The notes below the pieces were generated by a model. That model worked only from the letters and a program-made list of their open reading frames with translations. It did not search any database and was not told the origin of the DNA. The position numbers and the translations under genes are program-made. Shown piece after piece: positions 925-19,704 of a stretch of DNA of 64,000 bases; position 1 is the stretch's first letter, and each line of letters opens with the position of its first letter. Origin of the DNA: Halobacteriovorax marinus. Its GTDB lineage: Bacteria; Bdellovibrionota; Bacteriovoracia; Bacteriovoracales; Bacteriovoracaceae. The DNA lies in NCBI GenBank assembly GCA_002163155.1, contig MAAO01000006.1, positions 620,001 through 684,000 of the forward strand. Reading direction: 5' to 3'.

Positions 925-1018
925 AGATATTATTTAGTTTGTCTGAAGAATCTTAAAGAAACCTTAAAGAAATGTCGAAAATTACTGTGAGTATAAATTT
1001 TTAGCTTAAAGTAAAATT

Positions 1019-1744: not shown

Positions 1745-3267
1745 TCTTAAAAGAGAAAATCGAACGATTAATTGATGAGAGTACTTTATTAAACATTCCT
1801 TTAATGTTTAAGCTCTTATTTCGTTACAAGTTTGTTGTAATGGCCACAATCGTTTTCTGTCTTTCCGTTTGTTCTTATCTCTATACAAGACAAGTTGAAA
1901 TCTATTGGAGTTCAATTCGTTTTTCAAATATGCAAGAAAAGTCTAGCTCTCCTATGGATGCCATTAGTGTAGCTCTTGGAACTGATGCCAAAGATGGTGG
2001 TTTTAATAACTCTTTGGCAGAAGAGGTTAGAGCTCTTAGATTATCAATGGATTTTACAAGAAATCTCGTTAATAAACTAATGGAGAAAGAATATTTTGAT
2101 AAAATGGATTTCAATCCAACCAATAAGAAATCTGACAAGTTTATAGTATCTGAATTAAAAAATACATGTGAAGGTAAAGAAGATTGTTTTATTGAAGCCA
2201 TGGTTCGTTTAGTTCCAGGATTCTATTCAATAGAAGATCCTGAAAGAACGGGGCTGAACTTTGTTTTAGAAGTAGGAACTGCTGATAAGAGAACGACAGA
2301 GATCCTGCTTGATGTTGTGGCCAAGGCCATTAGTGCTAGTAGACTAGATACCATTAGAATGGGTTATATAGAACAAACGAAGTCTGCTGAAAAACTTGTG
2401 GCTAAAGAGAGAGTTTCTCTAAAAGAGAAGAACTACCTAGGACTTGTGAAAAAGAAAGAACTCTTAAAAGATGAAGTGACAAACTTACAATATGAAATTC
2501 AAATACATAATAAGTTATTAATGGAAAATCAATCTCAACTAACTATCGCGGAAGCGAAAGTGCAAAAAGCGAATAGTATTATTAAACTTGGAGTTGATAA
2601 CAAAGGTTTAAACACAGATAAGAAGAGAAATTTTCTAAGAGAGAAGATTGATAACTTAAGTAAGGATATCAATGCGCTAGAACTTATAAGAATTAGCCAT
2701 TCTACTAGAGAAATTGATATTTTAAACTCTCTTAAGAAAGAACTTAGAAAATCAGAACGCAAACTTAAAAAGCTCGGTAATACTAGATCTGTAGCTTCAT
2801 TGAATGAGTTTGTTCAGAAATCTAAAATTAAAGTAGAAGAAAATGAGTTTAACTATAGAGTTTTTAAAGGTTATGCACTAAAGGCCTCAAAGAAAGCAGT
2901 GCTTTTAAAAGAGAAAAGTACTGGTCTTGTTGACTCTCTTCTCTCTACTAAAACAAAATTAGAGCATATGAGGCCTTCAGTAAATTTCTTAAAGGCACTT
3001 GAGGCGAAAGTTATTCAACTTAAACTCTTAGAAATTACTTCTACAAGTGATTTGAAATTTGATAACTTTGCTACTTTTCCTGTGAAGACTAAGAAAATTA
3101 CGAGATTAATGTTATTTGTCTATACAGTATTCTTTATAGTCTTTTCACTCCTAGGTGTTCTGTGCACTAGGTTCTTATTTGATGATAATGTTTATGACGA
3201 AGAAGACTTAAAGAGAATCTTTCCCAAAGTAAATGTTCTAGGAACGGCGCCAACATTTGAGGAATAA
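1741..3267 (+). CDS. Wzz/Wzc-like polysaccharide chain-length determinant (PCP family)
   Basis: This 508-residue inner-membrane protein has the polysaccharide co-polymerase layout. A short cytoplasmic N-terminus is followed by a membrane segment at about residues 31-49 (FVVMATIVFCLSVCSYLY), a long charged periplasmic region rich in heptad-like Lys/Glu/Leu at about 200-420, and a second membrane segment at about 454-476 just before the C-terminus. Proteins of this type set chain length in Wzy-dependent polysaccharide synthesis and form oligomers in the periplasm. The start overlaps the preceding gene by four bases and the stop lies one base before the polymerase gene start. The C-terminal tail is short, so the kinase part, if any, is the separate upstream protein. 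Confidence 0.75.
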   Translation: MILKEKIERLIDESTLLNIPLMFKLLFRYKFVVMATIVFCLSVCSYLYTRQVEIYWSSIRFSNMQEKSSSPMDAISVALGTDAKDGGFNNSLAEEVRALRLSMDFTRNLVNKLMEKEYFDKMDFNPTNKKSDKFIVSELKNTCEGKEDCFIEAMVRLVPGFYSIEDPERTGLNFVLEVGTADKRTTEILLDVVAKAISASRLDTIRMGYIEQTKSAEKLVAKERVSLKEKNYLGLVKKKELLKDEVTNLQYEIQIHNKLLMENQSQLTIAEAKVQKANSIIKLGVDNKGLNTDKKRNFLREKIDNLSKDINALELIRISHSTREIDILNSLKKELRKSERKLKKLGNTRSVASLNEFVQKSKIKVEENEFNYRVFKGYALKASKKAVLLKEKSTGLVDSLLSTKTKLEHMRPSVNFLKALEAKVIQLKLLEITSTSDLKFDNFATFPVKTKKITRLMLFVYTVFFIVFSLLGVLCTRFLFDDNVYDEEDLKRIFPKVNVLGTAPTFEE

Positions 3268-3268
3268 A

Positions 3269-4555
3269 ATGCTCAGTAAGGACGCCAGATCAATTGTCTT
3301 ATTATTTGCTTTTATACTGCTATCCCCAGTTTTAGAACCTGGGGGTTCTCGCATCAACTTCGCTGAATTCTATATCTATCTAAGTTTTATTTTCAATGCC
3401 AAAGATATGGTTAAGAATAAGTACTTTCTTATCATGTCAGCAGCTTCCGTAGGGTTTCTTGGAGTTTGCCTGTTCACTGCTTTATTAGTGGGAAGTGTCA
3501 TCAATGGGCACGATATTTATATGCTTCGCCTGATGGTACAGTTGTCTTTTACCATTGCCATTTTAAATTATAGAATACAAAATATTTTAAAGAATAGTCC
3601 AGGTGAATTTACTTTGGTTTTCTATCGCATGATTCTAGTAGGAGCTATTCCTTCTGTTATCATTCTCTTGCAAAAATTAAATTTTGCTAACTTTAGATCA
3701 ATTAGTACAAGGCTCTATAATCCAAAATTCTTCTTCACTGTAGGGGATGTGTTCAGCTCATTTAGATATACCTCTATCTTTAAAGACTTCTACACAGCTG
3801 GAATTTATTTTATGTTGTTTAGTTTTGTCTGTTTCTATTTTATCAATAAAGTAGAGTGTTCTAAGAAGATGCGTTTGCATGTTTTAATCATTCTTATCTT
3901 TTCCTACGGTATGCAGACGATGGTAGCGAGAACGTCTCTCTTATTTATTCCTGTGATCATTTGTATGATGTTCTTTTTAGCGAAAGGTAAGAAGTTGGCA
4001 GCAAAATTTAAAGGAATCCTATTCTTTATTTTTATTTTGGGGCCAGTTGCTTTCTTTGGAGTGAATATGCTGCTTGAAAGTGGGATGATTAATAAGACTT
4101 GGATCATGGCAGTGTTTAGTATGTTTGAAAATGATGGGAGTGCGGAGAGTTCATCTTCTTTTACAACGTTACTAGAGTGGAACCAAGGATTCTTCAATAA
4201 ACTAGAAAGAGACCCTACGCTACTTATTAAGCCCATGCATGATTTTAAACTCAATGTTCTGACCTCTAAAGACTATTCAGATAGTTTCTATGTACAGGAA
4301 ATTTACCGTTATGGAATCTATGGTCTAATCCTCTACTTAGGTTACTCGCTGGCCTTCATTAGGGCCTTTCTAGAGGATTGTAGAGAAATGGTTGTGTTGA
4401 TCCTGCTCTTTTTAGTTTTAAACTATAAGGGGGGGAATGTGTACTTCATGCCAAAAGTTATTTATCTCTTTGCCATGATTTTAGTCTTAGTTCCCGCCTA
4501 TGAGTCAATTTTCGTTGCAAAAAATAATTCAAAAACAGTTCCTGAAATAGTCTAG
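3269..4555 (+). CDS. O-antigen/exopolysaccharide polymerase-like membrane protein (Wzy/WaaL type)
   Basis: This protein of about 428 residues has many hydrophobic segments spread along its length and one larger hydrophilic loop at about residues 280-340. That is the usual shape of Wzy polymerases and O-antigen ligases, which have little sequence conservation. The ATG at 3269 is preferred over the upstream TTG at 3257 because GAGGA precedes it and it starts one base after the chain-length gene stop. Together with the upstream genes it completes a Wzy-pathway set of glycosyltransferase, co-polymerase and polymerase. Polymerase versus ligase cannot be settled from sequence alone, but the neighbours favour a polymerase. 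It ends two bases from the convergent transporter gene. Confidence 0.65.
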   Translation: MLSKDARSIVLLFAFILLSPVLEPGGSRINFAEFYIYLSFIFNAKDMVKNKYFLIMSAASVGFLGVCLFTALLVGSVINGHDIYMLRLMVQLSFTIAILNYRIQNILKNSPGEFTLVFYRMILVGAIPSVIILLQKLNFANFRSISTRLYNPKFFFTVGDVFSSFRYTSIFKDFYTAGIYFMLFSFVCFYFINKVECSKKMRLHVLIILIFSYGMQTMVARTSLLFIPVIICMMFFLAKGKKLAAKFKGILFFIFILGPVAFFGVNMLLESGMINKTWIMAVFSMFENDGSAESSSSFTTLLEWNQGFFNKLERDPTLLIKPMHDFKLNVLTSKDYSDSFYVQEIYRYGIYGLILYLGYSLAFIRAFLEDCREMVVLILLFLVLNYKGGNVYFMPKVIYLFAMILVLVPAYESIFVAKNNSKTVPEIV

Positions 4556-6148: not shown

Positions 6149-6730
6149 ATGAAGTTAACTCAGAAAATACACAATCAAGCTCAAAAGCTACTTATGGGCC
6201 TTTCACACACAGGTTTTTTCCGTGGCGGAGAGTTTAGTGAACTCTCTGGAAAGTACTTCTGTGACTGCTCAAGTTATATTAATTCACTCATAAAACTGAT
6301 TGATCCTTTGCTATACACAGAGCTATTGAATGAACGTGAACGTCTCAGGGCCTGCGATTATTTCGATCTGGCAAAGAACAAGAATTCTAGTATCGCTTAT
6401 CATCAGAGCATTGATAAAGTCGTTGTGGGAGAGATTCTCGTTTGGAAGAAGACCAATATTCCTAAATCCGGAGATAGCGGGCACATGGCGATTGTGCTGA
6501 GTGTTCCTGAAGAAATTGCTGAAGGTAGATACAAGTTACTAGTGAGTGATTGCTCTAAAATTTTACACGACATGGACTCTAGGGTAGATGGTGGAGTGGG
6601 GAGTGGCGTACTTACATTACTAGTTGATGCTAAGAAGTGCATAACTGGTTATATTTGGTCTAGCGAGAGAGCTAAGAATAAGGTGACAGATGTTCTTTGT
6701 ATCAGTTTTTCTGATAGTAAGTTAAAATAA
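6149..6730 (+). CDS. NlpC/P60-like cysteine peptidase or amidase
   Basis: This 193-residue protein has no signal peptide. FCDCSSYINSLI (C40) matches the catalytic Cys motif at the start of the core helix of NlpC/P60 and CHAP domains, and SGDSGHMAIVLS (H112) matches the strand carrying the catalytic His. Family members hydrolyse peptide or amide bonds, often in peptidoglycan, but cytoplasmic ones act on other substrates. It sits three bases upstream of an ABC ATPase gene, so the three genes 6149-8189 form an operon. Because the neighbourhood looks like a modified-peptide locus, it may process or inactivate the peptide product; that is inference. The third catalytic residue was not identified with certainty. 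Confidence 0.65.
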   Translation: MKLTQKIHNQAQKLLMGLSHTGFFRGGEFSELSGKYFCDCSSYINSLIKLIDPLLYTELLNERERLRACDYFDLAKNKNSSIAYHQSIDKVVVGEILVWKKTNIPKSGDSGHMAIVLSVPEEIAEGRYKLLVSDCSKILHDMDSRVDGGVGSGVLTLLVDAKKCITGYIWSSERAKNKVTDVLCISFSDSKLK

Positions 6731-6733
6731 TGC

Positions 6734-7381
6734 ATGCCTATCTTAAAGTGCCATAGTCTTTCCAAATCTTTTTCAGAGAAAAACTTATTTTCAAATATAA
6801 GTTTTGAGATTCGTCCCGGTGAGCGTTTATCTATTATGGGTGAGAACGGAGTGGGGAAGACAACTCTTTTAAAAGTATTGGCTTCGCAACTTTTAAGTGA
6901 CTCTGGATCGCTTCATTTGAATGGCCTCGACTATTCCAATTTAAAATTTCATGAAATAAAGAAAAGTATCGCCTGGGTGAATTCAGAAGATCATGGGCTT
7001 TATCCAAAACTCACAGGTCTTGATAATATTCAATACTTCGCTAAACTCCTAAAAATTTCAAATAGTGAATTAAACGAAAAAATGAAACCGTGGCAAGATA
7101 TTGGACTTTTTAATAAGGCGCTTAATGAAAAATTCTCTCTCTGCTCCATTGGTATGAAGAAGATTCTTTTGATTTTCTGCTTAACCATGCATGTTCCACA
7201 AATTGTCATTATGGACGAACCTTTTAAGAGTTTTGATCAGGAAAATAAGTTAAAAATTATCAAATTAATGAGTGATCTATTTCAAGAGGGTGTGATTATT
7301 TATAGCACCCATGATGAATCACTCAATGCACACTTTGATGCTAAAGTTCTAAAGTTAGTGGGAGAGGCCCATGTTAGCTAG
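6734..7381 (+). CDS. ABC transporter ATPase, degenerate signature (CcmA-like)
   Basis: This 215-residue nucleotide-binding subunit has Walker A GENGVGKTT (about residues 36-44), Walker B IVIMDEPF and the switch His in IYSTHDES. Two conserved elements are unusual. The Q-loop glutamine is replaced (AWVNSEDHGLYPKLT), and the signature reads CSIGMKK instead of LSGGQ. It still looks able to bind ATP. The ATG at 6734 is the only start giving the correct frame, three bases after the preceding stop. It overlaps the permease gene by 11 bases. It probably powers export of a small product by the partner permease, most plausibly the modified peptide made by the neighbouring genes. Confidence 0.88.
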   Translation: MPILKCHSLSKSFSEKNLFSNISFEIRPGERLSIMGENGVGKTTLLKVLASQLLSDSGSLHLNGLDYSNLKFHEIKKSIAWVNSEDHGLYPKLTGLDNIQYFAKLLKISNSELNEKMKPWQDIGLFNKALNEKFSLCSIGMKKILLIFCLTMHVPQIVIMDEPFKSFDQENKLKIIKLMSDLFQEGVIIYSTHDESLNAHFDAKVLKLVGEAHVS

Positions 7382-8189
7382 TCTGATCTTTAGAATCTTA
7401 AAATTAAGTTTTAAAAATCAATATGATCACAAACTCTCGCACTTAGTGGAAGTTATTAGTGTTTTCATAAGTTTATTTATATACTTCTATGTCTCTAAGG
7501 CCTTCGGAGCTCCGGTTGAAGGAGAGCTTTTAAAGTACAAAGTGGATTACTTTTCTTACGTGGTTTTTGGAGAGATTTTTATTTCATTGCCACTGTTTTT
7601 CTTAGTGGGACCTTTCTTTAAATTAAAGTCTCTTGCCTTAGATGGATCCTTAGAAACTTATCTCTCTTTGCCGATTTCTCTTAATCGCTTTATTCTTGTT
7701 CTGTCTTTTTGGAATTTTGCGCAAAGTTTGAAAAGAGTAGGTCTTACTTTTCTCATTGCAGTTCTCTTTTTTGGAATGCAATTTGAAATGCTCACTCTTT
7801 TAAAACTCTTGATCATAGTTATTGTGAGTACTCCCATTTTCTTGGGGATTGGTCTCTCGCTTTGTTACTTTCTCTTTGTTTATGGACGTGGGGGAAGTCT
7901 CATTGGTTATGTGAATACCTTTGTCGCCATTTCTTCTGGAAGTTTCTTTCCTCTGGCGGTTATGCCTTCGTGGTTTTCAGAGTTTTGCTTAAATGTTTCA
8001 CCATTTACACTATTCCTAGAATCTGCTCGTTCACTGTACGCGCATACTCTTAGTCATGAATTGTTTCTCATAGTCATTGTGAAATTGTTATTGTGGGGAA
8101 TGTTTTTACCAATTGGAAGACTTTGTATTTCACTTGGAATTAATTTCTATAGAAAATCGGGTAGACCTCTAATTATTAGTCACTACTAG
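7371..8189 (+). CDS. ABC-2 type permease
   Basis: This 272-residue protein has six hydrophobic segments in the ABC-2 pattern: an N-terminal helix near residues 25-45, pairs in the middle, the GSFFPLAVMPSWF re-entrant-like motif near 195-210, and a last helix near 240-255. ABC-2 permeases export drugs, peptides or polysaccharides. It overlaps the ATPase gene by 11 bases and is therefore translated with it. Its 3' end overlaps the convergent radical SAM gene by 14 bases. The pair has no substrate-binding protein, which fits an exporter. Confidence 0.82.
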   Translation: MLASLIFRILKLSFKNQYDHKLSHLVEVISVFISLFIYFYVSKAFGAPVEGELLKYKVDYFSYVVFGEIFISLPLFFLVGPFFKLKSLALDGSLETYLSLPISLNRFILVLSFWNFAQSLKRVGLTFLIAVLFFGMQFEMLTLLKLLIIVIVSTPIFLGIGLSLCYFLFVYGRGGSLIGYVNTFVAISSGSFFPLAVMPSWFSEFCLNVSPFTLFLESARSLYAHTLSHELFLIVIVKLLLWGMFLPIGRLCISLGINFYRKSGRPLIISHY

Positions 8190-9234
8190 CGAGAGAAAAT
8201 TTCTTTCTACTCTTTGCCTGTTCATAAATAGATTGATCGCAGCCAGTATAATCTCCCGTATTGATATAGATACTACCACTACTTCTAGAACAGTATTCAA
8301 TCACGTCACACTCCATGCAAGACATAAAATCTTTCTCTTCTAGCTTTCTAATTTTTTTAAACTCTGAAGAATTTTCCCATATATCTTTAAGAGATTGCTT
8401 TCGTAAATCTCCTGAATTGATGGGGGCGCCAATGCAGGGATAAACTATTCCGGTGGAGCTAATACCACAAATGGATCTGGCACATGAGCACTGTAGAGCT
8501 CTATCTGAATTATCAGTATTAAACAGATGAGAGTGAGGACCTTTTAAGAGCGTCTCAAATTGTTCTATGGTGAGCTCATTTTCTCTAGAGCCTGTTGAGT
8601 CGTCATAACGTTTGGTCACTTCATAAGAGGCTTGATAGGGAATTTCCAAGTTTTCTGCTAATTGAATCATAGAATCCAATTGATCTATATTTTCACGGTG
8701 AAGAATAATACTCATGTGAGTATCAAGGCCGATCTCTTTGGCGCGCTCTAAACCTTCAATAGATTTCTTAAACAGTTTAGAACCCGTGAACTCTTGATAA
8801 GTCTTTTCATTGTCTCCGTATAAACTTAAGTCTAGTCCATCTAGTCCTGCGTGGTAGAGTTTCTCCACCATATTGGTTGTAAGTAGAGAGCCATTAGTTT
8901 TTAGACGTACATGGAGGTGTTCTGATTTTGCAAACTCTACGAACTTTAAAAGAGCTGGATGAGTTAGCGCTTCGCCACCTGAGAGATTTAAATAGAGACA
9001 TCCAAGATCTGAGAGTTGTTTAATCGTTTGCAATATTTCAGCATCACTGAGGGCATTCTCTTTGATCTCTTTGGGCATTTCCTTAGAGCGATCAAAGTTA
9101 TAACAGTGATCACATCTGAAATTACAATTTTGGGTAATTTCAATTGTCGTATTCAAAGGAATATAATCTTCAAAGGCCAATTTATAGGACTCTGTGATGA
9201 GGCTTGTTTGTGGTTTTAAATCTTTTTTACTCAT
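8176..9234 (-). CDS. Radical SAM/SPASM peptide-modifying enzyme
   Basis: This 352-residue enzyme has the radical SAM cluster motif CNFRCDHC at residues 37-44 (Cys37, Cys41, Cys44), followed by LNLSGGEALTHP, which matches the GGE SAM-binding motif. The C-terminal third holds a SPASM-type set of cysteines (CSCARSIC, PCIGAP, CMECDVIEYC, GCD) that would bind auxiliary iron-sulphur clusters. SPASM enzymes such as PqqE, AlbA and QhpD modify ribosomally made peptides by C-C, C-S or epimerisation chemistry. The gene overlaps a PqqD-like gene by eight bases, the classic partner that presents the peptide leader. The likely substrate is the 61-residue peptide encoded at 11989-12174; the bond it makes cannot be read from sequence. 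Confidence 0.88.
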   Translation of the reverse strand: MSKKDLKPQTSLITESYKLAFEDYIPLNTTIEITQNCNFRCDHCYNFDRSKEMPKEIKENALSDAEILQTIKQLSDLGCLYLNLSGGEALTHPALLKFVEFAKSEHLHVRLKTNGSLLTTNMVEKLYHAGLDGLDLSLYGDNEKTYQEFTGSKLFKKSIEGLERAKEIGLDTHMSIILHRENIDQLDSMIQLAENLEIPYQASYEVTKRYDDSTGSRENELTIEQFETLLKGPHSHLFNTDNSDRALQCSCARSICGISSTGIVYPCIGAPINSGDLRKQSLKDIWENSSEFKKIRKLEEKDFMSCMECDVIEYCSRSSGSIYINTGDYTGCDQSIYEQAKSRKKFSLASSD

Positions 9235-9487
9235 GGAGTAGCGACAACTTTCTTAAGGTTTGAATAAATTCACTCACATCTTGTGAGGCCTGAAGTTCAT
9301 CAACTTCATATTCATTCATTAGTATTTTACAAAGATCAACCTCAGAATTTTTCTCAAGATGATTCCATAGAAGAGAGCCCACCTCATTGAGTTTATGCAC
9401 ACACTTTCCTACACGTGAATCGATGATGAGAGTTTTCTCTCCCATTGTTTTCCATGCTAGAAATTTTGCTTTGGTGAACTTTTCCAT
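9227..9487 (-). CDS. PqqD-like peptide chaperone (RiPP recognition element) for the radical SAM enzyme
   Basis: This protein of about 86 residues has the PqqD fold pattern: an N-terminal beta-hairpin (KTLIIDSRVGKCVHKLNEVGSLLW) followed by a helix pair and a short C-terminal helix (VSEFIQTLRKLSLL). These domains bind the leader of a precursor peptide and hand it to the modifying enzyme. The ATG at 9487 is preferred over the TTG at 9535 because the extra 16 residues are not PqqD-like and would run into the divergent gene at 9535. It overlaps the radical SAM gene by eight bases. A second PqqD-like protein lies at 10797-11078, so two leader-binding proteins serve this locus. Confidence 0.8.
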   Translation of the reverse strand: MEKFTKAKFLAWKTMGEKTLIIDSRVGKCVHKLNEVGSLLWNHLEKNSEVDLCKILMNEYEVDELQASQDVSEFIQTLRKLSLLHE

Positions 9488-9534
9488 TTCTAAATTATGA
9501 AATACTTTAACTAATGTGACAAGTCGGTGATACA

Positions 9535-10431
9535 ATGAACGCCATGGATAAGGGCTTAGAAATACTCAAATATAAATATTCCTATGAACAAGTTATTGAG
9601 AATCACCTAGGTGGAGTGCTCTATAACTTCTATAAAGAGGAAGAGTATAAGCCCATTTGGAAGAGACAATGGTTTCACAATGACATCTTAAAAAGTGAAT
9701 TAGAGTCTCTAGGTCCGCTCTTTAAAGCGCAATCCATTCGTCCCATCGTCGTGAAGGGCGTCGCTCTTCTCTATGATCTCTATGAGGACATGGGCTCAAG
9801 AAACATGTCCGATTGCGACATTCTGGTATCGCCAAAAGAATTTACACAGACGAGAGAGCTTCTTATTTTGCAAGGTTACAAAGTCATGAAAACCAGCAAG
9901 TGGTTTGCCAATGATTTTAAGTGTGAACTTTCAAAAGTGATTAATGGTAGAGAAGTTAATTTTGAAGTGCATTCAAAACTTCTCTTTCATCACGATTATG
10001 AGACTTGGAATATTACTGCGCTAACAGAAGACTTCGACACACTAGAGGAGAAAGATCATATTATCTATATGTGTGCTCATCTTGCTTCTTCTCATAGTTT
10101 TTTAAAGTTATTTTGGCTCTTTGATATTTACTTTCTAAGTCAGAAAATGGAATTCGACTATGATCAATTAACATTAAGAGCAAAAGAGCTTAGAGTTTTA
10201 AACTCACTTAAGATGTGCTTCTTCTGTATAGATAAATTCTTTATGCCTAAGCGCTCCCTTTCTTTTACATCTCTCACTTATGAATATCTCTTTAAAGTAG
10301 ATTTTCTGTGGCAAGTGAAACAAAGTGGTCTTAGGTATTTTCTAGTGAAACATCTTAGTAAGGACAGCTGGATTTTGGCCTTTAAATACGATTTCTTTTG
10401 GCTTATAAATAAATTATCTCAGAAAATTTAG
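9535..10431 (+). CDS. Nucleotidyltransferase-fold protein (NTP_transf_5 type) of a RiPP-like locus
   Basis: This 298-residue protein matches the uncharacterised nucleotidyltransferase family seen beside PqqD-like and HPr-kinase-like genes. It has IVVKGVALLYDLY (Lys74, Gly75), then RNMSDCDILV with Arg89, Asp93 and Asp95 as the likely metal-binding DxD, and downstream NFEVHSKLLFH as a possible third acidic strand. Such enzymes may add nucleotides or sugars to a peptide or protein, but no activity is established for this group. It is the only + strand gene between two halves of the peptide locus. It is divergent from the PqqD-like gene at 9487 and its 3' end overlaps the S26-like gene by 29 bases. 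An alternative ATG lies nine bases downstream. Confidence 0.75.
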   Translation: MNAMDKGLEILKYKYSYEQVIENHLGGVLYNFYKEEEYKPIWKRQWFHNDILKSELESLGPLFKAQSIRPIVVKGVALLYDLYEDMGSRNMSDCDILVSPKEFTQTRELLILQGYKVMKTSKWFANDFKCELSKVINGREVNFEVHSKLLFHHDYETWNITALTEDFDTLEEKDHIIYMCAHLASSHSFLKLFWLFDIYFLSQKMEFDYDQLTLRAKELRVLNSLKMCFFCIDKFFMPKRSLSFTSLTYEYLFKVDFLWQVKQSGLRYFLVKHLSKDSWILAFKYDFFWLINKLSQKI

Positions 10432-10804
10432 CAAGGGCGATCATAATCCATAGTGAGAGACGGCTAATTACTCTGTTCCTCAGTCTCAGTTTTGAAAGAA
10501 ATAAAAAAAGAGCACTTATAACTTTAGAGTTCACTTCAATTCTTACCCCATCTCTCTTGATGTATTTTAGAATACCCAGTACTTCACTTTCATTAAAATA
10601 TTCTAGGCAAGTTGAAAAATCTCCTTTAGATAGAGATTTGTCTAAGTCGACTACTCGGTGGGCTAAGTACTCACCACATTGGTCTTTAAAGAGAATGATG
10701 TTTGAGCGCTTTAGTGTAAAAGAGGTGCTTAGAAACAGTTCGTCCCCTGAACGAATAAGTGGGGACATGCTATCTCCGTGAATGGTGAGCGAGAATTCAT
10801 CCAT
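10403..10804 (-). CDS. S24/S26 signal-peptidase-like protease
   Basis: This 133-residue protein opens with the S26 signature: IHGDSMSPLIRSGDEL holds the nucleophile Ser12, and YLAHRVV (His49, Arg50) followed by LSKGDFS (Lys60) matches the HRVV and KGD boxes. In many archaeal-type and SipW-like enzymes the HR box histidine replaces the general-base lysine, so activity is plausible. There is no N-terminal membrane anchor, unlike LepB. Instead a hydrophobic stretch lies near the C-terminus (LSLWIMIALAKF). Proteins of this type accompany PqqD and HPr-kinase-like genes in several peptide loci and may remove the leader peptide; that role is inferred here. It overlaps the upstream PqqD-like gene by eight bases. 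Confidence 0.75.
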   Translation of the reverse strand: MDEFSLTIHGDSMSPLIRSGDELFLSTSFTLKRSNIILFKDQCGEYLAHRVVDLDKSLSKGDFSTCLEYFNESEVLGILKYIKRDGVRIEVNSKVISALFLFLSKLRLRNRVISRLSLWIMIALAKFSEIIYL

Positions 10805-11078
10805 TAGTGATAGTGATTAAGTCTTTAGTGAGGAGATCATTAATGAAGAGGGATAAATCTCTCTTAAGGGAATCAAGGTCTATTTCAAATTCATTCATAA
10901 GCTCTGCTAAGAGCTCTTGGTAGGGTTTTTCTACGTGGAGTTGTTGCCATATAGAGAAGGCGACAACATTGAGCTCGTGGGCCTTGGCATTTTTTGAATC
11001 GAGAAGAATATAGTCTTCATGGATTTGTTGAAAGGGGAGTTCTCTTGAAATTTTAAATGAATTACTTTCAGTCCACAT
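10797..11078 (-). CDS. PqqD-like protein (HPr-kinase-associated type)
   Basis: This 93-residue protein shows the PqqD pattern: a beta-strand hairpin DYILLDSKNAKAHELNVVAF, then SIWQQL and helices with ELLAELMNEFEIDLDSLKRD and a final VHP-like helix. It overlaps the HPr-kinase-like gene by 11 bases upstream and the S26-like gene by eight bases downstream, so the three products are made together. Its placement beside the kinase rather than the radical SAM gene suggests that it brings the peptide leader to the kinase or protease, while the other PqqD-like protein serves the radical SAM enzyme. This division of labour is inference. Confidence 0.82.
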   Translation of the reverse strand: MWTESNSFKISRELPFQQIHEDYILLDSKNAKAHELNVVAFSIWQQLHVEKPYQELLAELMNEFEIDLDSLKRDLSLFINDLLTKDLITITNG

Positions 11079-11988
11079 AATTCCAAATCTCCTTTTCTTT
11101 TTTAAATTGCATTGAATAGATGGGTAAGCTCTCAGAAATATCTAGCGCCATTTGCATAATTTTATCTGTTTCATGACTAGGCAGTGAGTGCCAAAAGATA
11201 TTTGAAACAGAGGCCATCGCCTTCATATATGCCTTAGTGGTTGAGAGTTTACTTCTCTTAAATTCACTATCTTGAATGAGCCAGTTAAGAGATTTTACGG
11301 GGATTTTCTTAGCATAATCTACTTTCTCAAAGAATAGGCCACCAATGGCGCCCGCTTGTACAAAGTACTTTCCGTCTTCTTTTATGATGAGATTCATATC
11401 ATCACTTAAGTGATCTCTACCATCGCGAAGAGTTACCACAGTACTCTTTCCTGCACCGGAGTGGCCTAGAAATATATTCGCTTGTCCATCGTGATCAATA
11501 ACACAAGATGAGTGAAGTACTAGAATATCTCTTTTAAGAAGTCTGCGTGGAAGAAACCATCTTAGAAAATTATTAAATCCATCATCCATAGAGTTTCTAC
11601 AAATAAGTATAGTTTCTAAATCATTTATTTGAATTGCTGCAAAATCTCTTTGGATCGCCACAGTGTTAGCATCATTTGTAAAACAATCTTGCGACTCTTC
11701 ATCTTCCCACTCTAAGTGAGTGAAGCCGTAGTCTATGGGATTAACCAGGTGAATCGCATGTTTAGGATCAACCTCTGTTCTTAGCCAATCAGAGGGAAGA
11801 ATTCTTGTGAAGTCACTTAAGAGAGCGCCGTCCTGTGAATAGAAAACTAATTCTTCGCCGTGATAGAGGCAAGGAATTGCTATAGAGTCTTGCGCTTTAA
11901 TTGCAGGCAAGTCTTTCTCTACGTGATCTAGGAGATCTTTCTTTTTTTGATAGAGACTTAAATTTTTAAAGAGATCTTCTGGGATCAT
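11068..11988 (-). CDS. HPr kinase-related protein, probable peptide kinase
   Basis: This 306-residue protein has an N-terminal region unlike HPr kinase and a C-terminal HprK-like catalytic part. The P-loop GHSGAGKST lies at residues 175-183. Upstream, VLHSSCVI matches the strand holding the HprK catalytic His, and LSDDMNLI (Asp196, Asp197) matches the paired acidic residues. Relatives in lasso peptide clusters phosphorylate the C-terminal serine of the precursor, and the precursor encoded directly upstream here ends in serine. The start ATG follows the precursor stop with no gap (TAA then ATG), so translation is coupled. It is too diverged to be the HPr kinase of sugar control, and no HPr gene is nearby. 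Confidence 0.8.
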   Translation of the reverse strand: MIPEDLFKNLSLYQKKKDLLDHVEKDLPAIKAQDSIAIPCLYHGEELVFYSQDGALLSDFTRILPSDWLRTEVDPKHAIHLVNPIDYGFTHLEWEDEESQDCFTNDANTVAIQRDFAAIQINDLETILICRNSMDDGFNNFLRWFLPRRLLKRDILVLHSSCVIDHDGQANIFLGHSGAGKSTVVTLRDGRDHLSDDMNLIIKEDGKYFVQAGAIGGLFFEKVDYAKKIPVKSLNWLIQDSEFKRSKLSTTKAYMKAMASVSNIFWHSLPSHETDKIMQMALDISESLPIYSMQFKKEKEIWNYVD

Positions 11989-12174
11989 TTACGAATTTAA
12001 TTTTGAAGCGTTACAGAAGTTTGGAGCGGCGGTTGCACTCTTTCTTCCTCCAGAAGTTGTTCCATTACAGGCAGCACCAAAGACATTGAGATCTTCCGTA
12101 AGAATTTCTGGTTTTACATACTTCTTCTTAGTACTTTCAGCTTTTGTTTTAGAATCTTCTCTTTCTTTAGTCAT
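11989..12174 (-). CDS. Candidate RiPP precursor peptide
   Basis: This encodes 61 residues with no signal peptide. The first half is highly charged (MTKEREDSKTKAESTKKK) and runs into YVKPEI at residues 19-24, similar to the YxxPxL leader motif bound by PqqD-like domains in lasso systems. The second half has a different composition: Ala, Gly, Ser, Asn and two cysteines, with blocks FGAACNG (Cys36), SGGRKS and NFCNASKLNS (Cys54), ending in Ser61. A good ribosome-binding site, GAGGTAG, lies upstream. The gene lies 18 bases after the stop of the giant surface protein and abuts the kinase gene. Likely core: about residues 32-61, with Cys36 and Cys54 as modification sites. The role is inferred from context and shape. 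Confidence 0.75.
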   Translation of the reverse strand: MTKEREDSKTKAESTKKKYVKPEILTEDLNVFGAACNGTTSGGRKSATAAPNFCNASKLNS

Positions 12175-12192: not shown

Positions 12193-15100
12193 TTATAGCT
12201 TCAAACGTATCTTTCTACCAAGTGTAAAAGCAAAAATTAAACTCAAATAGAATAACCATTCCATGAGTCCAAAGTACCAAGGAATTTGAGTGCGACCGTC
12301 TGCGGCAGATGCAGAACAACCACCACCTCCACCTGATGCTGGAGCGGGAGTACTAAGCGCTCTAGGCGGTGGAGCAAAAATACTAGATGGCAATCTTAAG
12401 GTAGGATCACCAATCAATGAGAAACTAGAGACGATATCTCTTTCATATTCATGAGTTCCCAAAGAGAGTTTAGATTGAATAAAAATATCACCAATTCTGT
12501 TATTTTTAAAAACGCTACTCGTTTCACTTGAATACTGCTCAAAGAAATTCTGAGCTAACTTTAACTGTGCACTAGGCGTAGTGAAAGTCGTAGAGCCCAT
12601 ATAGATAATAGATCCACCTGTTTCATTGAGTACCAACTCTTCTCCAATAGATGAGTAGGCCTTTTCTGGATAGAAGTATTGGGCACCTTCACAACTCCAC
12701 ATAATGGAGATGGGATGTAATGGGTTTGTGAGAGCTTTTGCATTAGTAGAGGTGAAAGAGCTATTTTTTCCCCAAGATATGGCAGAACCGTGTCCCATCA
12801 TAGAAATAAAGAGGGGAGTATTATTAAAGAGAGAAATTATTTCATCTCGAATATTTTGGTCAGTGGCCAGCGGTGTGGCATCCGTCATTGTGGTTTGTAA
12901 GTTCTGATTACTAGCTTTTGCTTTTAGAGCAATTTCTTTTGATTTCTCAAGGAACTTGTCAAAATCTCCATCGTCTTTACCGGCAAGAAAGCTAATCGTT
13001 TCAAGTAAATTTGGAGTCGTGTCACCATTTTCAAAATCAATAACTTTTTGTATATAGGCACGCACTAGATCAGGATCATTAGTTGGTAATCTCCCAATAG
13101 CAATTTTCGGGATATGACTAGAGTCACTTGAGACGAAGTAGTTATCATTTCCAAAATCTTGGAAGCGTCCAGTAGAGAGCGGCATGGGTAGTGTTTCCAC
13201 TTCATGGGATGAGCGCTCCAAGTTGGTGTAGACATCAATATTGTGATCCAGTGGATCGGTTGTTCCATCACCTAGGATGAAGACGTATTCAGGTTTTACA
13301 TCCCAGTTTGAAATAGCATAGTTGATAAAGTCTTTTATCGCCTTAGAGCTCTTAGAGCCGTAAGAGAATTCTAGATAAATCTGCTCAAGAGATACACTGA
13401 GAACTTCCATTCCCTGTGATCTTCTATATTCTGCCAACTCTTCTGCAGCGTAGAGAAGGTTCTCATGACCAATGATGAGAAGTTTTCCTCTATTGTCACT
13501 TTCTCTTAAAGGAGACTCGTAGTCACTAATAAGAGATAGGGAGTAAGGAATAAGAAAGGCATCGTCAGTAGTGGCGAAGAGTTCTTTTTCATCATTTGTA
13601 TTTAGCATGTCGTCGACACCAAAAGTTGCGGTGTAAATAGTGTTGCCAGCATTTGAAGTAATCACAGCATTACTAATCTTTACGATCTCAGAATCAGAGG
13701 TGTCATAGATATTAATATTCCCATTCGTAAAATCTGTCATAGAGTATTGAACGAGAGATTCATTTAAGTGCACATTCAACTTATTAGAACTGGCGCTTAA
13801 GTCTGCCACGTAGATAACTTCTACCTTATCAATGTAGGCAATATCTAAATCCGAATTAGGTACATTAGTGCCTAGAAGTTTTAAAGAGACACCATTTATT
13901 CCTCGTAGGAATCTATCGGCCGGAATTTCAAAGCTGAGCACCTGTTGCTCATTACTCCAGAAAGTCGCTTCGTCTTCTAGATTAGAATTTATATAGAGTT
14001 CCATATGGTGTTCTATTTGATTACCATAGTACTGACCAAGGTTTCCTTTGAGAGTGAAATTCACAATGACATTTTCATTAGAGCTCAAATCGAGTTCTGG
14101 TAAATTTGGCGAGACAGTAAAAGTGTCCCAACCGGCTAAACTGAAAATCTGGGTCCAGAAGAAGTGATCTCCTGAGTGGCCAAGACTAATTCCATCTAAG
14201 TACTTCTTATTTTCCTCGTAAACTCTCTTAATAAGAGTCACTTGTTCCGAGGCCTCTTCAAAATCACCTGGAGTTCCATCAAAATCAAGAATTCTAAGGG
14301 GAGAGTTTCCTTCATCTAGGGGATTTCCAATTGTTAAAATTAGAGAAGTGGTCTTACTCTCAATTGAATCCTTCGCTCTGGCAAAGAATTTTAATGAGTC
14401 CCCACTATTAAACTGACCATCGATACTCGTAATTTCAAGGGGAACTTCGTTCTCACCTGCGTAGAGTCTAAGTTCACTTAGATTCACTTCATCAAAAGGA
14501 AAGTCTGTATAAGTATTAAGTAGATCTGTGAAGAGGAGTTCATGCATTCCTGTCTCTTCAATATCAATCTTTAGAGAATTCATACTTAAATAAGATGTTG
14601 CACTGGTGCCATCATTAATAGGAAGAGGATTAATTCCGCCGCCCACAAGATTTATATCAACAATGATTTCATCACTAGCAGTAATATCCTGCGTGACTGG
14701 ATTGAAATTGAGTGGAGTAAGTTTCACTCGAATATACTTTCTCTTACCAATAGTGATGAGGTCAGAGTCAAGAGTGAGATGTGAATTTGGAAAGTTAGCA
14801 GAAGTAGCATAAGTAGTGGCATTAATAGAGTAGCTAGTACTCATGGAATTATCTGCTTCAATAGTGAAAGTAGGTGCCGGTGCGATGAGTTTTCCTGCTG
14901 TCACAGAAGTTGTAAGAGTTAGGTTATCAACATTCGCAGCTGTTGTGTATTCATGTACTTCAATGAGAAGTTCTCTCTCTGGTAGTTCTGGTAGGGTAGG
15001 TGTTACTGATTTAGAATAACCAGTTATCGCTACTGTTTCATAAGCTCCATTCCAGAGACTTGTTGTATAAACAGCGGTACTAGGATTAATTTTTAACTTT

Positions 15101-18100
15101 AAAGTCGAACTTGTTTGCAATAGAATTTTCACTCCATGCCCAAGATCTTTATAAGATGGGTTAGTGATCGTTCCTGGATTTGGATTAAAGATATCGTCAT
15201 CCGGATTAGTTCCTACGTTATCTGAAGCGCCTGCTGCGGGAGGGTTACCTAGACCACTTCTCGCCGTGGCATACACAGGTCCATGAAGAGTTCTCTTTCC
15301 ACCCACTTCTAAATCTTCTAAGAAGTAGTAGTAGAATTCATTATTAGTGACGCCATTATCTATGAAGCGATAATCTCCTCTGGCCTGTCCGGCATTGTTG
15401 AGATTTCTAATCAGTTCAGTATTAACTTGTTTAAATTCACCACCGTCTGGTGAGTTTGATCTATAGAGATTAAACCCTATGTGATTCACTTCTAAGATCG
15501 TCGTCCAGCTTATATCGATCGCTTGATCGTAAGGTGTGGCCTTAAAATTTTCTAAACTCACAGCTGATTGTGAGTTGGAGAGTGAGACGTTACAGCTTGA
15601 TGTGTTGACTTTAGTACTCACATCAAAGGTGGTTTGACTCTCATACCAATCTCCCGTCCAACCACTAAAATCAATGGACTGACCAGAACAACCACTGGAA
15701 TAAATCAGGGTGTAACCAGCAGAACTTGCAGGAGTATTTCCAGTTGCTGGATCAAAGGAGTTAAAATTTCCCCAAGTCCAAGCAATATTTGAAGCGGAGC
15801 TAGGAATAGATCCTGAAGTATTAATTTGAATCGCTCTCACACTTGAGTGACTGGCGGAGAGGTTAGTAAGTTGTCCACCTTCAAGTTTGGTAATAATGGT
15901 AGAGCCGCCAATATTTAATCCACTAGTGTTTAACTTATTGAAGTAGAACCCTGAGAAACTAATTCGACCACCAGTGGTAGTGATTCCAAAAGTTCCAGAT
16001 CCTCCAACTGGTTGAATCAGTCCTTTATTACTAGAGGATTGAGGGAAAGTGTCGTTCACTCCATTAATGACAAAGAGACCGCTGCCTGAGACTTGTAGTG
16101 ATTGACCACTACCGATTTCAATAGTTCCCCCGCCATCAAGTTGATAGGTCCCTGAAGACATATTAATTCCGTTAGGAAGAACGAGCTTCTTTCCGTTTAA
16201 TACTTTAAAGAGAAAGTTTGAGCTCAGTACTGAGACGGTATTAATTTGCAGTGAGCTATCAGTCACTGAAATGGTTCCACCACCAGACTTATTAATTCTA
16301 AGTGTATTGATAGTGGAGGTAGAAGTTATATTGTGATTTAAACTCGATCCACCATCAGCAAGATCTAAATTTCCTGTCTGATTGAGTGTTCCAGTATTCG
16401 TGAAGTTTCCGTAAGTTTCAAGAGTTGCCCCGCCACTAATGGTGAGCACTCCATTTGTAATGTCTACATTCTTACAAGTAGCAGTTCCACTACCGACAGT
16501 TGGATCATTTGTTACATTTGGAATCTGACAAGTCTTAGTTAAACTTGGAACTCCCGCGGTCCAGTTAGAAGCTGTAAACCAATCTGTATTCGTTGTTCCC
16601 GTCCATATAGTAGTTGAAGGGGCATAGATAGTTGAAGGTGTTCCAGAGGTCACGGGAGTTGGTGTCGTGGCCGAAAAGGCGTAACCTTGTGAGTTCACCA
16701 TATCATTAGCGGCAGCGATACTCACTCCCAGTGTATTATTTCCTGTGGCACTAGAGGTGATATTATAATCAACATAAATACATCTCTTAGGTGGTGTGAC
16801 CGCATCTGCTTCAACGGTGAATTGTCCCCCTGCAAAAGAGAAAGTTCTAGTTGCCGGATTTCCTGAAAAAGTTCCACTACCAATAAGCGATCCACCAGTT
16901 CCATTACAATCACTATCATAGTAAATTGAAGCGCTGGTGATATCTGCTGAAGTTCCTGTTCCTGTTAGAGTAATTTTTAAACTCGTCACGTCCGTATCAG
17001 AAAATGCTCCCGCAGAAGATTGTTTAAATCCATAACGAACCATAGAGTAGGTTCCACCTACTGTTACTGTTCCAGGAGAGCTGGTTTCTTGTGTGAGTAG
17101 AATTGTATTTGTTTCTCCCGACCAGGAAATGAGATAACTAGTAGCATTGTCTAGAGTAGATCCTGAGAGATCTCCCGAGTGATTTGTAATGCTTAAAGTC
17201 CCTGCGCCTGTGGCATTAGTGTTGATATTTGTTACACTCGCTGCCGCTGATCCATTGCTATCAAAAGTCATATCACTAAGAGCGTTGGTTGGAATTTGTC
17301 TATGTAGATTTAACAGAGTTGTTCCACCGTTCACAGGATAAGTGAATGATCCATCTTGTAAGTGATTGGTGGCGTTTATAGTGGCGCCTGCATTAATGGT
17401 TACACCACTAGTGGCCAAGTGATCAAAGGTATAATATCTCGCATTAATAGTACCATTTACGACAACTGCCATGGCAAAAGCCGAATTAGAAGTTGTCACC
17501 ATCGCCTTATTAGAAGAATTTCCTACAATATTTAGTGTTCCACCTGTATTAACAGTTAGGGTGCGACCATTTCCAAGGGCGAGTGTCCCTCCGGATTGAA
17601 TGACAAGAGAACAACCAGATTGAACAGTCACATCTCCTAATATTGTCAGAGTCACCCCATTGGGGATTGCTAGTTGTCCGTCACTACAAGTTAAGTTTCC
17701 AGAGAAAGTAGCATTACTTAGAACTGCAACAGTATTGGACGCGGAGGATCCTGAATTATTAATGATTAAGTTTCCAGGAAAAGTTGTAGAAGAGGTGAAT
17801 GATTGATTTGTCACTCCCTTCATGGTGATTGATCCAAGTGTGGCATTAGTGAAATTAAAAGAAGATTGAATATTTAAAGTGTTGGAAACCTCAAAATGAA
17901 AAGTTGAATTATTCCAATTCATGGTCCCGTTCGTTTGCAAAGTAGCATTGGCACAAGCGATGGGACTGGTGTTCACTCTCGTGGTATTTGACCCCACTCC
18001 GACCTGACAATCTCTTGATGAGCTAGGTAGGGTAGCGCCACTCCAGTTATTAAGATTACTCCACTGATCATCAACAGAACCTTCCCACTTAGAATAATTT

Positions 18101-19704
18101 GAGTTTCTAATGGTCGACATTTTTGATTCAACGGGAGGAGAACTTGTTACTGAGAAAGAGTAGGCGCCAGAATTAGTCACATCACTAGTGGCCATAACTC
18201 CAAACTTAACAGTTTTTGCATCAGAAGGGTTAGCGGTAGTTTTTGCACGTATAATGAGACAACCCTGATCACTAGGTCCATTACTTTGAATCTGTCCTGT
18301 AGGAATATTAACAATCGCCTTAGCGGGAGATCCACTAAAAGATAAATCTCCAATTAAAGTGTCATTTGATGAATTGTAATTACAATTCGCATTGGAATCT
18401 ATATAGGCACGTACATATTCAAGATCTGAAATAGAAGCAGAACCTGTCATGGTAATCGCCACCTGAGTGATATCTGTTATGGTGTCATTTTGAGTGAGAG
18501 AGAAAGCAAATTCCGCAAAGGTAAACTCTTCACTTGGATCAATAAAGAGTTGTGGCTCTCCAGTCTCTGCATCATCTACAAGAGAGAGTTCCGTGGAAGC
18601 GGAAACATTCCAATTTATTTTAGAGCTCGGATCAACTTCAAAACTTGTTCCTGAAACATCTCCTGAATAATTATCTAATAAAGTGGATGCGCCACTATAA
18701 GAAGTCGCATTGAAATTATTTGGATTCAATTGAGCATCATCGTTAAAGAAACCAATGGTGTCCATGGTACTTGGAAGAGAGGATCCATTCGCAAGAGAAA
18801 TAGCAAAACCGTTGGCGCGAATTCCTCTAAATTCTCCATTATCAAGTTGAGTCACAGTTCCTGTGGAGCCGATACTCATTCCAGAGGCATTTGTTCTTTG
18901 TACAGTGAAGTAGTTAGCGGTGAGAATTCCATTCATGATAAAAATAAAAGTTCTATTGGAGGCTTCGGATACAAGTTTCGCTGGATTTCCTGAAGCTCCA
19001 AGAAGTTGTAACACTCCTCCTGAGCTTACTGTAAGAGTTTCATCTCTTCTGATTCTAAGCTCTCCTCCGGCCTCAACTTTTAAAACTCCAGAGATGGTGA
19101 GTCCACCCTTAGCAAAAATTGAACCACCATTTTTTATAATAACAGTATGACCTGCGGGGATGAGTTGATTAACTCCTGTATTATTTAAAGTAATATCACC
19201 TTCAACGTAGGTGATCCCGGTACTCGTTATCCTGAGATCAGAACGAATACGAAAATTATTCTTTAAAGTTACCGAAGTGTCATTTGAGAGATCTAGATCA
19301 CGAATATCATCAACCGCTTCAAAAGTTTGAGCAGAAGTTCCGGCCATTTCAATTCGAAATTTATTACTTGTGAGATTTAAAGTATTGGTGAAGGGGGCCC
19401 TAAAGTAATCACCAGTAACAGTGAGCTTATCATTTGTTGTTCCCTCAAAAATTCCTGATTGAACATCCATACAACCCACCGTGATGTCAGTACTCACGCG
19501 AGCGCTTGATCCAGTAGAAATTATAACTACGTCTTCAGAGGTTGTGTTTGGAACATTTGATCCACTCCAGTTAGAAGCGGTATTCCAGACATTAGTTGAT
19601 CCGGCCCAAGTTCTCACCGTTCCACCACACGCAGCTAAGCCCGATTGCATGGAAAGCAAAATAGTTAGCACTATTAGAAATAGGGGGACTTTTAATTTAT
19701 TCAA
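12193..19704 (-). CDS. Giant surface protein with gingipain-type (C25) peptidase domain and Cys-containing C-terminal anchor
   Basis: This 2503-residue exported protein starts with a signal peptide (about residues 1-24). Residues 25 to about 1370 are Thr/Ser/Asn/Gly-rich and beta-helix-like, with three modules each opening with a WxG...W...NW motif near 30, 538 and 1033. A fibronectin-like segment lies near 1383-1480. Residues about 2071-2430 form a peptidase C25 domain: GHG with His2305 and WSCEGAQ with Cys2338. The 33-residue spacing equals that of the catalytic pair in gingipain R. The C-terminus has GGGGGC (Cys2463), a hydrophobic segment and a basic tail, like Cys-type C-terminal sorting signals. 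The start is TTG with AGAAGGA five bases upstream. It heads the operon containing the peptide gene. Target proteins are unknown. Confidence 0.85.
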   Translation of the reverse strand: MNKLKVPLFLIVLTILLSMQSGLAACGGTVRTWAGSTNVWNTASNWSGSNVPNTTSEDVVIISTGSSARVSTDITVGCMDVQSGIFEGTTNDKLTVTGDYFRAPFTNTLNLTSNKFRIEMAGTSAQTFEAVDDIRDLDLSNDTSVTLKNNFRIRSDLRITSTGITYVEGDITLNNTGVNQLIPAGHTVIIKNGGSIFAKGGLTISGVLKVEAGGELRIRRDETLTVSSGGVLQLLGASGNPAKLVSEASNRTFIFIMNGILTANYFTVQRTNASGMSIGSTGTVTQLDNGEFRGIRANGFAISLANGSSLPSTMDTIGFFNDDAQLNPNNFNATSYSGASTLLDNYSGDVSGTSFEVDPSSKINWNVSASTELSLVDDAETGEPQLFIDPSEEFTFAEFAFSLTQNDTITDITQVAITMTGSASISDLEYVRAYIDSNANCNYNSSNDTLIGDLSFSGSPAKAIVNIPTGQIQSNGPSDQGCLIIRAKTTANPSDAKTVKFGVMATSDVTNSGAYSFSVTSSPPVESKMSTIRNSNYSKWEGSVDDQWSNLNNWSGATLPSSSRDCQVGVGSNTTRVNTSPIACANATLQTNGTMNWNNSTFHFEVSNTLNIQSSFNFTNATLGSITMKGVTNQSFTSSTTFPGNLIINNSGSSASNTVAVLSNATFSGNLTCSDGQLAIPNGVTLTILGDVTVQSGCSLVIQSGGTLALGNGRTLTVNTGGTLNIVGNSSNKAMVTTSNSAFAMAVVVNGTINARYYTFDHLATSGVTINAGATINATNHLQDGSFTYPVNGGTTLLNLHRQIPTNALSDMTFDSNGSAAASVTNINTNATGAGTLSITNHSGDLSGSTLDNATSYLISWSGETNTILLTQETSSPGTVTVGGTYSMVRYGFKQSSAGAFSDTDVTSLKITLTGTGTSADITSASIYYDSDCNGTGGSLIGSGTFSGNPATRTFSFAGGQFTVEADAVTPPKRCIYVDYNITSSATGNNTLGVSIAAANDMVNSQGYAFSATTPTPVTSGTPSTIYAPSTTIWTGTTNTDWFTASNWTAGVPSLTKTCQIPNVTNDPTVGSGTATCKNVDITNGVLTISGGATLETYGNFTNTGTLNQTGNLDLADGGSSLNHNITSTSTINTLRINKSGGGTISVTDSSLQINTVSVLSSNFLFKVLNGKKLVLPNGINMSSGTYQLDGGGTIEIGSGQSLQVSGSGLFVINGVNDTFPQSSSNKGLIQPVGGSGTFGITTTGGRISFSGFYFNKLNTSGLNIGGSTIITKLEGGQLTNLSASHSSVRAIQINTSGSIPSSASNIAWTWGNFNSFDPATGNTPASSAGYTLIYSSGCSGQSIDFSGWTGDWYESQTTFDVSTKVNTSSCNVSLSNSQSAVSLENFKATPYDQAIDISWTTILEVNHIGFNLYRSNSPDGGEFKQVNTELIRNLNNAGQARGDYRFIDNGVTNNEFYYYFLEDLEVGGKRTLHGPVYATARSGLGNPPAAGASDNVGTNPDDDIFNPNPGTITNPSYKDLGHGVKILLQTSSTLKLKINPSTAVYTTSLWNGAYETVAITGYSKSVTPTLPELPERELLIEVHEYTTAANVDNLTLTTSVTAGKLIAPAPTFTIEADNSMSTSYSINATTYATSANFPNSHLTLDSDLITIGKRKYIRVKLTPLNFNPVTQDITASDEIIVDINLVGGGINPLPINDGTSATSYLSMNSLKIDIEETGMHELLFTDLLNTYTDFPFDEVNLSELRLYAGENEVPLEITSIDGQFNSGDSLKFFARAKDSIESKTTSLILTIGNPLDEGNSPLRILDFDGTPGDFEEASEQVTLIKRVYEENKKYLDGISLGHSGDHFFWTQIFSLAGWDTFTVSPNLPELDLSSNENVIVNFTLKGNLGQYYGNQIEHHMELYINSNLEDEATFWSNEQQVLSFEIPADRFLRGINGVSLKLLGTNVPNSDLDIAYIDKVEVIYVADLSASSNKLNVHLNESLVQYSMTDFTNGNINIYDTSDSEIVKISNAVITSNAGNTIYTATFGVDDMLNTNDEKELFATTDDAFLIPYSLSLISDYESPLRESDNRGKLLIIGHENLLYAAEELAEYRRSQGMEVLSVSLEQIYLEFSYGSKSSKAIKDFINYAISNWDVKPEYVFILGDGTTDPLDHNIDVYTNLERSSHEVETLPMPLSTGRFQDFGNDNYFVSSDSSHIPKIAIGRLPTNDPDLVRAYIQKVIDFENGDTTPNLLETISFLAGKDDGDFDKFLEKSKEIALKAKASNQNLQTTMTDATPLATDQNIRDEIISLFNNTPLFISMMGHGSAISWGKNSSFTSTNAKALTNPLHPISIMWSCEGAQYFYPEKAYSSIGEELVLNETGGSIIYMGSTTFTTPSAQLKLAQNFFEQYSSETSSVFKNNRIGDIFIQSKLSLGTHEYERDIVSSFSLIGDPTLRLPSSIFAPPPRALSTPAPASGGGGGCSASAADGRTQIPWYFGLMEWLFYLSLIFAFTLGRKIRLKL

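Follow-up and report, generated by a model that had tools for sequence, protein, structure and literature searches.

The open reading frame at positions 11989–12174 (minus strand) of the window, i.e., the whole stretch of 64,000 nucleotides analysed here, is a genuine gene of 61 codons and belongs to a RiPP cassette whose composition is new, whose product is unusual in being fixed, and which has a putative protein partner. The reading favoured here, to which we assign a probability of roughly two in three, is that the pathway makes a RiPP of conserved sequence for use at the cell envelope, where the modified peptide works together with a giant peptidase of the C25 type. A near-invariant peptide paired with a giant surface protease suggests a fixed job at the cell surface and not that of an antibiotic. 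RiPPs known so far mostly serve as weapons or signals of variable sequence, or end up as cofactors after trimming; a long, near-fixed and apparently doubly modified peptide that tracks an envelope peptidase would place RiPP chemistry among the structural or regulatory parts of the cell surface. It would also link phosphorylated-peptide enzymes of the LppK/LppS/LppN type to radical SAM chemistry, and it offers a concrete, genetically testable candidate partner.

The precursor, MTKEREDSKTKAESTKKKYVKPEILTEDLNVFGAACNGTTSGGRKSATAAPNFCNASKLNS, comprises a leader of approximately residues 1–34 and a conserved core of approximately residues 35–61, as judged from its homologues and their alignment. Across 22 aligned rows the charged leader varies in sequence until it reaches the pattern YxKPx[IV]xSExLxx[FY], which holds the putative RRE-binding motif YVKPEI (residues 19–24; 12103–12120, minus strand); the core, preceded by [GA], follows the pattern A-x-C-N-G-x3-G-G-R-K-x5-P-x2-C-x4-L-x-S-COOH. 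Invariant in all rows are Tyr19, Pro22, Cys36, Gly38, Gly42, Lys45, and Cys54. The first core Cys, Cys36 (12067–12069, minus strand), is part of a CNG motif, and between it and the second, Cys54 (12013–12015, minus strand), lies the dibasic GGRK motif (residues 42–45; 12040–12051, minus strand). The C-terminal residue, Ser61 in the window (11992–11994, minus strand), is Ser in 20 of the 22 rows and Thr in the other two; it is the predicted phosphorylation site, for which there is a precedent (PMC9266682). Most homologues from other families keep the first Cys, GGRK, the second Cys and the terminal Ser, and two sequences of the class (L077, L078) carry a Gly run ahead of the first Cys. Between the window and its nearest relative, L057, the core differs by 14 synonymous and seven nonsynonymous codon changes, with a dN of 0.27 and a saturated dS, which indicates purifying selection. 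As judged from the alignment, the core is fixed over a large distance, unlike the cores of variable antibiotic RiPPs or LPPs. A separate kinase clade (L078, L112, L114, L123) has shorter or Gly-rich precursors, e.g., ...GKVCNGMSTTGGRKASAPCTVLLS, and represents a second subtype of the cassette.

With the window precursor as the query, homologues were found in 22 of 129 genomes of the class (E < 1e-3), and a profile built from 22 homologues matched 35 of the 369 phylum genomes, which belong to several families in addition to that of the window; this count includes the weakest and doubtful match, G303. Kinase homologues occur in 23 of the 129 class genomes, nearly the same ones, and there the precursor homologues (E down to 5e-23) adjoin them. 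Such conserved co-location, with 35 of 369 genomes involved, is far more than chance would give. The plasmid and viral collections searched gave no homologue.

The locus has the make-up of a RiPP locus, that is, a short precursor with leader and core beside an RRE and modifying enzymes. The gene of the exported C25 peptidase (2,503 aa; 12193–19704, minus strand) lies 18 bp upstream of the precursor gene on the same strand. Directly downstream, with no gap, begins the gene of an HprK/PEPCK-fold kinase (11068–11988, minus strand), overlapped by 11 bp by that of the first PqqD-like RRE, on the kinase/peptidase side (10797–11078, minus strand; PF05402, 41.6 bits, 1.6e-10); the latter is overlapped by 8 bp by the gene of an archaeal/SipW-type signal peptidase homologue (S24/S26-like; 10403–10804, minus strand), the predicted leader peptidase. 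Then come an NTP_transf_5 protein (9535–10431, plus strand; 109 bits, 3.8e-31), predicted to decorate the phosphorylated Ser, and a second PqqD-like RRE (9227–9535, minus strand; 52 bits, 8.3e-14), the listed TTG start of which is perhaps too early; its gene is coupled, with an 8-bp overlap, to that of a radical SAM/SPASM maturase with the CxxxCxxC motif and SPASM cysteines (8176–9234, minus strand). The membrane subunit of an ABC-2 type exporter (7371–8189, plus strand) and an ABC exporter ATPase (6734–7381, plus strand) complete the set. Every neighbour named in the original prediction, i.e., kinase, two PqqD-like proteins, S26-like protease, nucleotidyltransferase, radical SAM/SPASM protein and exporter, is present; what it overlooked is the adjoining, conserved 7.5-kb C25 gene. 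A gene for a 193-aa protein with weak CHAP similarity (6149–6730) precedes the exporter genes by 3 bp, and in a sister species (L057, 49% identical) it stays beside them. Positions 1–4555 carry likely exopolysaccharide genes, with a group 1 glycosyltransferase at 1–924 and proteins that, by reading, are Wzz/Wzc-like and polymerase-like and have no Pfam match; similar genes flank the cassette in several relatives.

The gene set recurs with the precursor. For the 27 precursor loci that extend 3 kb or more to each side, a profile scan of the neighbouring 10 kb detected the kinase, PqqD and radical SAM genes at 26 loci each, the S26 and NTP transferase genes at 23 each, C25 at 17 and the exporter at 13. 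The single exception for the first three, L064, has them just past 10 kb because a C25 gene of 3,284 codons intervenes. For four of the 27 precursors the scan showed no S26 or NTP transferase gene in the vicinity; in some of these cases the genes are located elsewhere. The claim that the 61-codon gene encodes a RiPP precursor, its leader being of the YxxPx[IL] type, is supported, homologues being present in 35 of 369 phylum genomes and standing beside kinase, PqqD and radical SAM genes at 26 of 27 loci; the refuting condition set in the original prediction, a lack of such homologues beside these genes, clearly does not apply. In G032 (L171) the full set is contiguous, in the order radical SAM-PqqD-kinase-precursor, then C25-S26, then NTP transferase-ABC, and in G031 (L069/L140) it is split, with the S26, NTP transferase and ABC genes adjoining C25 on another contig (L140). 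Gene fusions join the kinase to S26 in L065 and the radical SAM protein to S26 in L062, tying the peptidase to both modification steps. At four loci (L062, L064, L067, L077) there is just one PqqD gene and the radical SAM protein is more divergent; despite this, the precursor core is the same in the first three.

The precursor and the C25 peptidase also go together on the scale of whole genomes. Among the 369 phylum genomes the long C25 type, defined by E < 1e-50, is present in 31, the precursor in 35, and both in 27 (p ~1e-29). When only genomes with a completeness of 90% or more and a contamination of 5% or less are counted, both are present in 22, C25 only in two, the precursor only in three, and neither in 208 (p ~1e-25); both p-values ignore phylogeny. 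The two genes are on different contigs in approximately ten genomes, so the co-occurrence is not just linkage, and with a patchy distribution across several families, shared inheritance alone is unlikely to explain it in full. One of the three genomes with a precursor and no detected C25 protein, G034, contains an N-terminal fragment of C25 type where a contig breaks off. Each of the two C25-only genomes has a divergent HprK-like kinase and PqqD with NTP transferase and ABC genes, and neither gave a radical SAM or precursor match. In one of them, G256, Asn-synthase-like proteins are encoded at the locus as well, and it has the appearance of a lasso cluster. It is worth mentioning that in this genome (L170, 5815–6918) a leader resembling those of lasso precursors (YAQPKLTKFGSVKEFT) shares its reading frame with a PRMT-like methyltransferase, an apparent precursor-methyltransferase fusion situated beside the Asn-synthase-like proteins, PqqD and the HprK-like kinase.

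The probable course of the pathway can be outlined, in part from characterised homologues. The RREs would bind the YxKPxI leader. The kinase model (pLDDT 92) best matches ATP-dependent PEP carboxykinases and HPr kinase/phosphatase in the PDB, which share a kinase fold, and its conserved residues H159, K181, D196, and D197 fit the His-Lys-Asp-Asp quartet required by lasso kinases (PMC9266682). Kinases acting on a C-terminal Ser are known from the paeninodin and pseudomycoidin systems (PMC9266682), and by analogy the kinase encoded here would phosphorylate Ser61. The LPP analogy speaks against this site, as LppK phosphorylates the core Ser3 and not the last residue, and does not accept Thr there (PMC13381572), whereas two of the precursors end in Thr. 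The S26 protein has a Ser in GxSM, a KGD box and, in its second box, His in place of Lys; it is of the archaeal/SipW type, like LppS, shown to cut the LPP leader with the help of the RRE (PMC13381572); the activities of LppK, LppS and the RRE have all been demonstrated in that related system (PMC13381572). By the same analogy the S26 protein would cut off the leader, probably near the [GA]A before the first Cys. The NTP_transf_5 protein may put a sugar or a nucleotide on the Ser phosphate; hexose addition by PsmN is the precedent (PMC9266682), and LppN showed no activity in its test (PMC13381572). The radical SAM enzyme scores below the cut-off for every named NCBIfam maturase; it resembles PqqE and the mycofactocin maturase by NCBIfam, and PqqE in the PDB search. 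It might modify the CNG...GGRK...C core, and the enzyme family and the invariant Cys residues hint at a thioether from one or both Cys as the most likely of the possible crosslinks. The ABC exporter would carry the product outside, where it is expected to act with the anchored C25 peptidase as a ligand, inhibitor, substrate or covalent partner. The viperin model gave 60.8 bits against a cut-off of 180, and PADLOC matches were at the general radical SAM level only; an anti-phage viperin or defence role was thus rejected.

The closest described relatives are the LPPs, published in May 2026 with the lpp cluster of Paenibacillus alginolyticus and reported from Bacillota, with variable cores and a phosphorylated Ser3 (PMC13381572). 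Their core set comprises a precursor, an HprK-like kinase, an RRE, an archaeal-type signal peptidase, an NTP transferase and an exporter, and their leader motif was described as [Y/W]xxPx[L/V/I/A/F/Y] (PMC13381572). The cassette shares with them the YxxPx leader, the HprK-like kinase, the discrete RRE, the archaeal-type signal peptidase as the leader peptidase and the NTP transferase, all found together, as well as an exporter and a polysaccharide neighbourhood. It differs from them in its own family motif, YxKPx[IV]xSExLxx[FY] instead of the LPP motif YxxPxVLxHQxIxFETxxS, in its conserved core, and in its exporter, which is encoded by two genes, one for an ABC ATPase and one for an ABC-2 type membrane subunit, in place of an MsbA-like exporter (PMC13381572). 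Neither radical SAM proteins nor C25 are mentioned in the main text of the LPP paper (PMC13381572). One could nevertheless regard the cassette as a Gram-negative branch of the LPP/paeninodin type, making a phosphorylated secondary metabolite tied to exopolysaccharide, with a radical SAM step added and the C25 link indirect, via an envelope lifestyle. The common enzyme core and leader motif and the exopolysaccharide genes close by, here and in relatives, fit such a view, but LPP cores are variable and their cassette shows many gains and losses (PMC13381572), while the core here hardly changes and C25 accompanies the precursor even where the two are on separate contigs; we regard this alternative as unlikely.

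Similarities to other classes are partial. Paeninodin and pseudomycoidin systems likewise have a C-terminal Ser, an HprK-like kinase with the His-Lys-Asp-Asp quartet, a PqqD-like B1 protein and a nucleotidyltransferase-like gene (PMC9266682); unlike them, the present cluster has a radical SAM protein and a conserved core with two Cys, and it has no lasso cyclase or B2 peptidase. The absence of the lasso cyclase and the transglutaminase-like protease, already pointed out from the window, holds: the lasso leader peptidase PF13471 was found nowhere in the genome, and the only Asn_synthase gene (PF00733) is on another contig. A lasso peptide was accordingly rejected, the cluster lacking both the Asn-synthase-like cyclase and the transglutaminase-like peptidase, and since the LPP motif, variable core and exporter type are not found here either, the cassette is assigned neither to the LPPs nor to the lasso peptides. 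SynChlorMet (NCBIfam ScmC–ScmF) also groups an HprK-like kinase (ScmC), a PqqD-like protein (ScmD) and radical SAM proteins (ScmE/F) in one cassette, but the window kinase reaches 23.5 bits against a ScmC cut-off of 125, and no C25, S26 or NTP transferase match came up under the SynChlorMet name. SynChlorMet, HPr-rel-A and GeoRSP (NCBIfam) were rejected, all scores being below the curated cut-offs. Sactipeptides and ranthipeptides share the radical SAM/SPASM enzyme, the RRE and Cys in a short core; they differ from the cassette in its kinase, NTP transferase, signal peptidase, C25 partner and non-variable product, and the crosslink is here a prediction. The suggestion of an undescribed peptide class thus needs to be narrowed: the core enzymes are those of the LPP set (PMC13381572), and kinase, PqqD and radical SAM proteins are grouped in SynChlorMet as well. 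What does appear undescribed is the radical SAM combination, a fixed core with two Cys and a terminal Ser, and the proposed partnership with a giant C25 protein; no paper on the combination of kinase, radical SAM and C25 was found in the open-access literature searched.

The C25 protein has a pro-domain at residues 1552–1685 and a catalytic domain at 2076–2438 (Pfam), with the dyad His2305/Cys2338 invariant in 26 homologues. By sequence and fold (model pLDDT 84) its nearest solved relative is PorU, followed by RgpB and Kgp, and the gingipain pro-domain and catalytic domain match it too. Besides the pro-domain, catalytic fold and dyad shared with PorU and the gingipains there are clear differences: the C25 proteins are approximately 2,500–3,500 aa long with large N-terminal regions, have a GGC-helix-basic anchor, and are predicted partners of a RiPP cassette. 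The anchor of the window protein (12196–12375, minus strand) consists of GGGGGC with Cys2463, a hydrophobic helix and a basic end. The complete copies inspected finish in the same way, their Cys lying in a Gly-rich segment ahead of the helix and the basic residues; Cys-type sorting tails, MYXO-CTERM among them, are built to this plan (PMC11980579). A search of its own genome with the tail profile, a short one of possibly low sensitivity, matched the C25 protein only. A second, far shorter C25-type protein (open frame of 537 aa; C12, 80532–81533) is encoded in the same genome and does not have the cassette tail.

PorU attaches proteins to A-LPS by a sortase-like reaction (PMC4560394), and the C25 protein could by analogy be a transpeptidase with the peptide as its donor or substrate, the pathway building a covalent surface anchor. 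The best matches, the tail found on no other protein of the genome by the profile, and the glycosyltransferase and other likely polysaccharide genes nearby are in line with this. PorU is, however, distinguished from the gingipains by an Arg 32 residues after the catalytic Cys (PMC4560394), which is present at the aligned position in none of the 26 homologues, which makes transpeptidation no more likely than hydrolysis; as the gingipain domains match as well, we consider a transpeptidase of this kind improbable. That the peptide instead ends up, after trimming, as a prosthetic group or small redox cofactor, like PQQ or mycofactocin, its fixed core reflecting a few retained residues, is the least probable of the alternatives: the pairing of PqqD with a radical SAM/SPASM protein resembling PqqE and the mycofactocin maturase, and the fixed product, would suit it, but conservation spans approximately 27 residues up to the very C-terminus, none of the clustered neighbours suggests itself as a conserved dehydrogenase-like partner, and a kinase and an NTP transferase are not known to have a role in those two pathways.

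The preferred reading, a conserved envelope product working with the C25 peptidase, may be put in a more specific form, offered tentatively and with less than even confidence: a fixed RiPP, phosphorylated or perhaps phospho-glycosylated on its C-terminal Ser and crosslinked by the radical SAM enzyme, would be the dedicated ligand, inhibitor or covalent partner of the giant C25 protein, in Acidobacteria as well. The dibasic GGRK between the two Cys would suit recognition by an Arg/Lys-preferring C25 enzyme, and it makes a role as inhibitor or substrate conceivable.

A contig search with the single window kinase sequence found nothing; one with the kinase alignment gave at least 21 loci, mostly distant, through which the spread outside the phylum was sampled. 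On the Acidobacteria contig L142, S26-kinase-PqqD-radical SAM genes face a C25 gene, and an open reading frame directly downstream of the latter (...PWQRPRI...TVC...TACPRGPISS) is precursor-like with a C-terminal Ser; by its sequence features this is a comparable C25-precursor pair in another phylum. Loci of Elusimicrobiales, Aminicenantes and deltaproteobacteria contain the kinase, a radical SAM gene and short open reading frames with Cys, several of which end in Ser; these are candidate precursors only. In two Elusimicrobiales loci (L143, 10716; L149, 10655) the gene order is kinase-PqqD-short ORF-S26-radical SAM, and the short ORF, ending in ...AALACGKCxxGPISQLACKxLKKxS, is a candidate for a further peptide family with a terminal Ser. 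The Chloroflexota contig L148 has an HprK-like kinase, C25-type matches, S26 and PqqD together, along with a short YxxP ORF that has no Cys. In the genome of the window, on contig C6 (L080, 7474–9142), a third PqqD gene adjoins that of a radical SAM protein of 460 aa; the two may belong to a second RiPP-like system of this bacterium.
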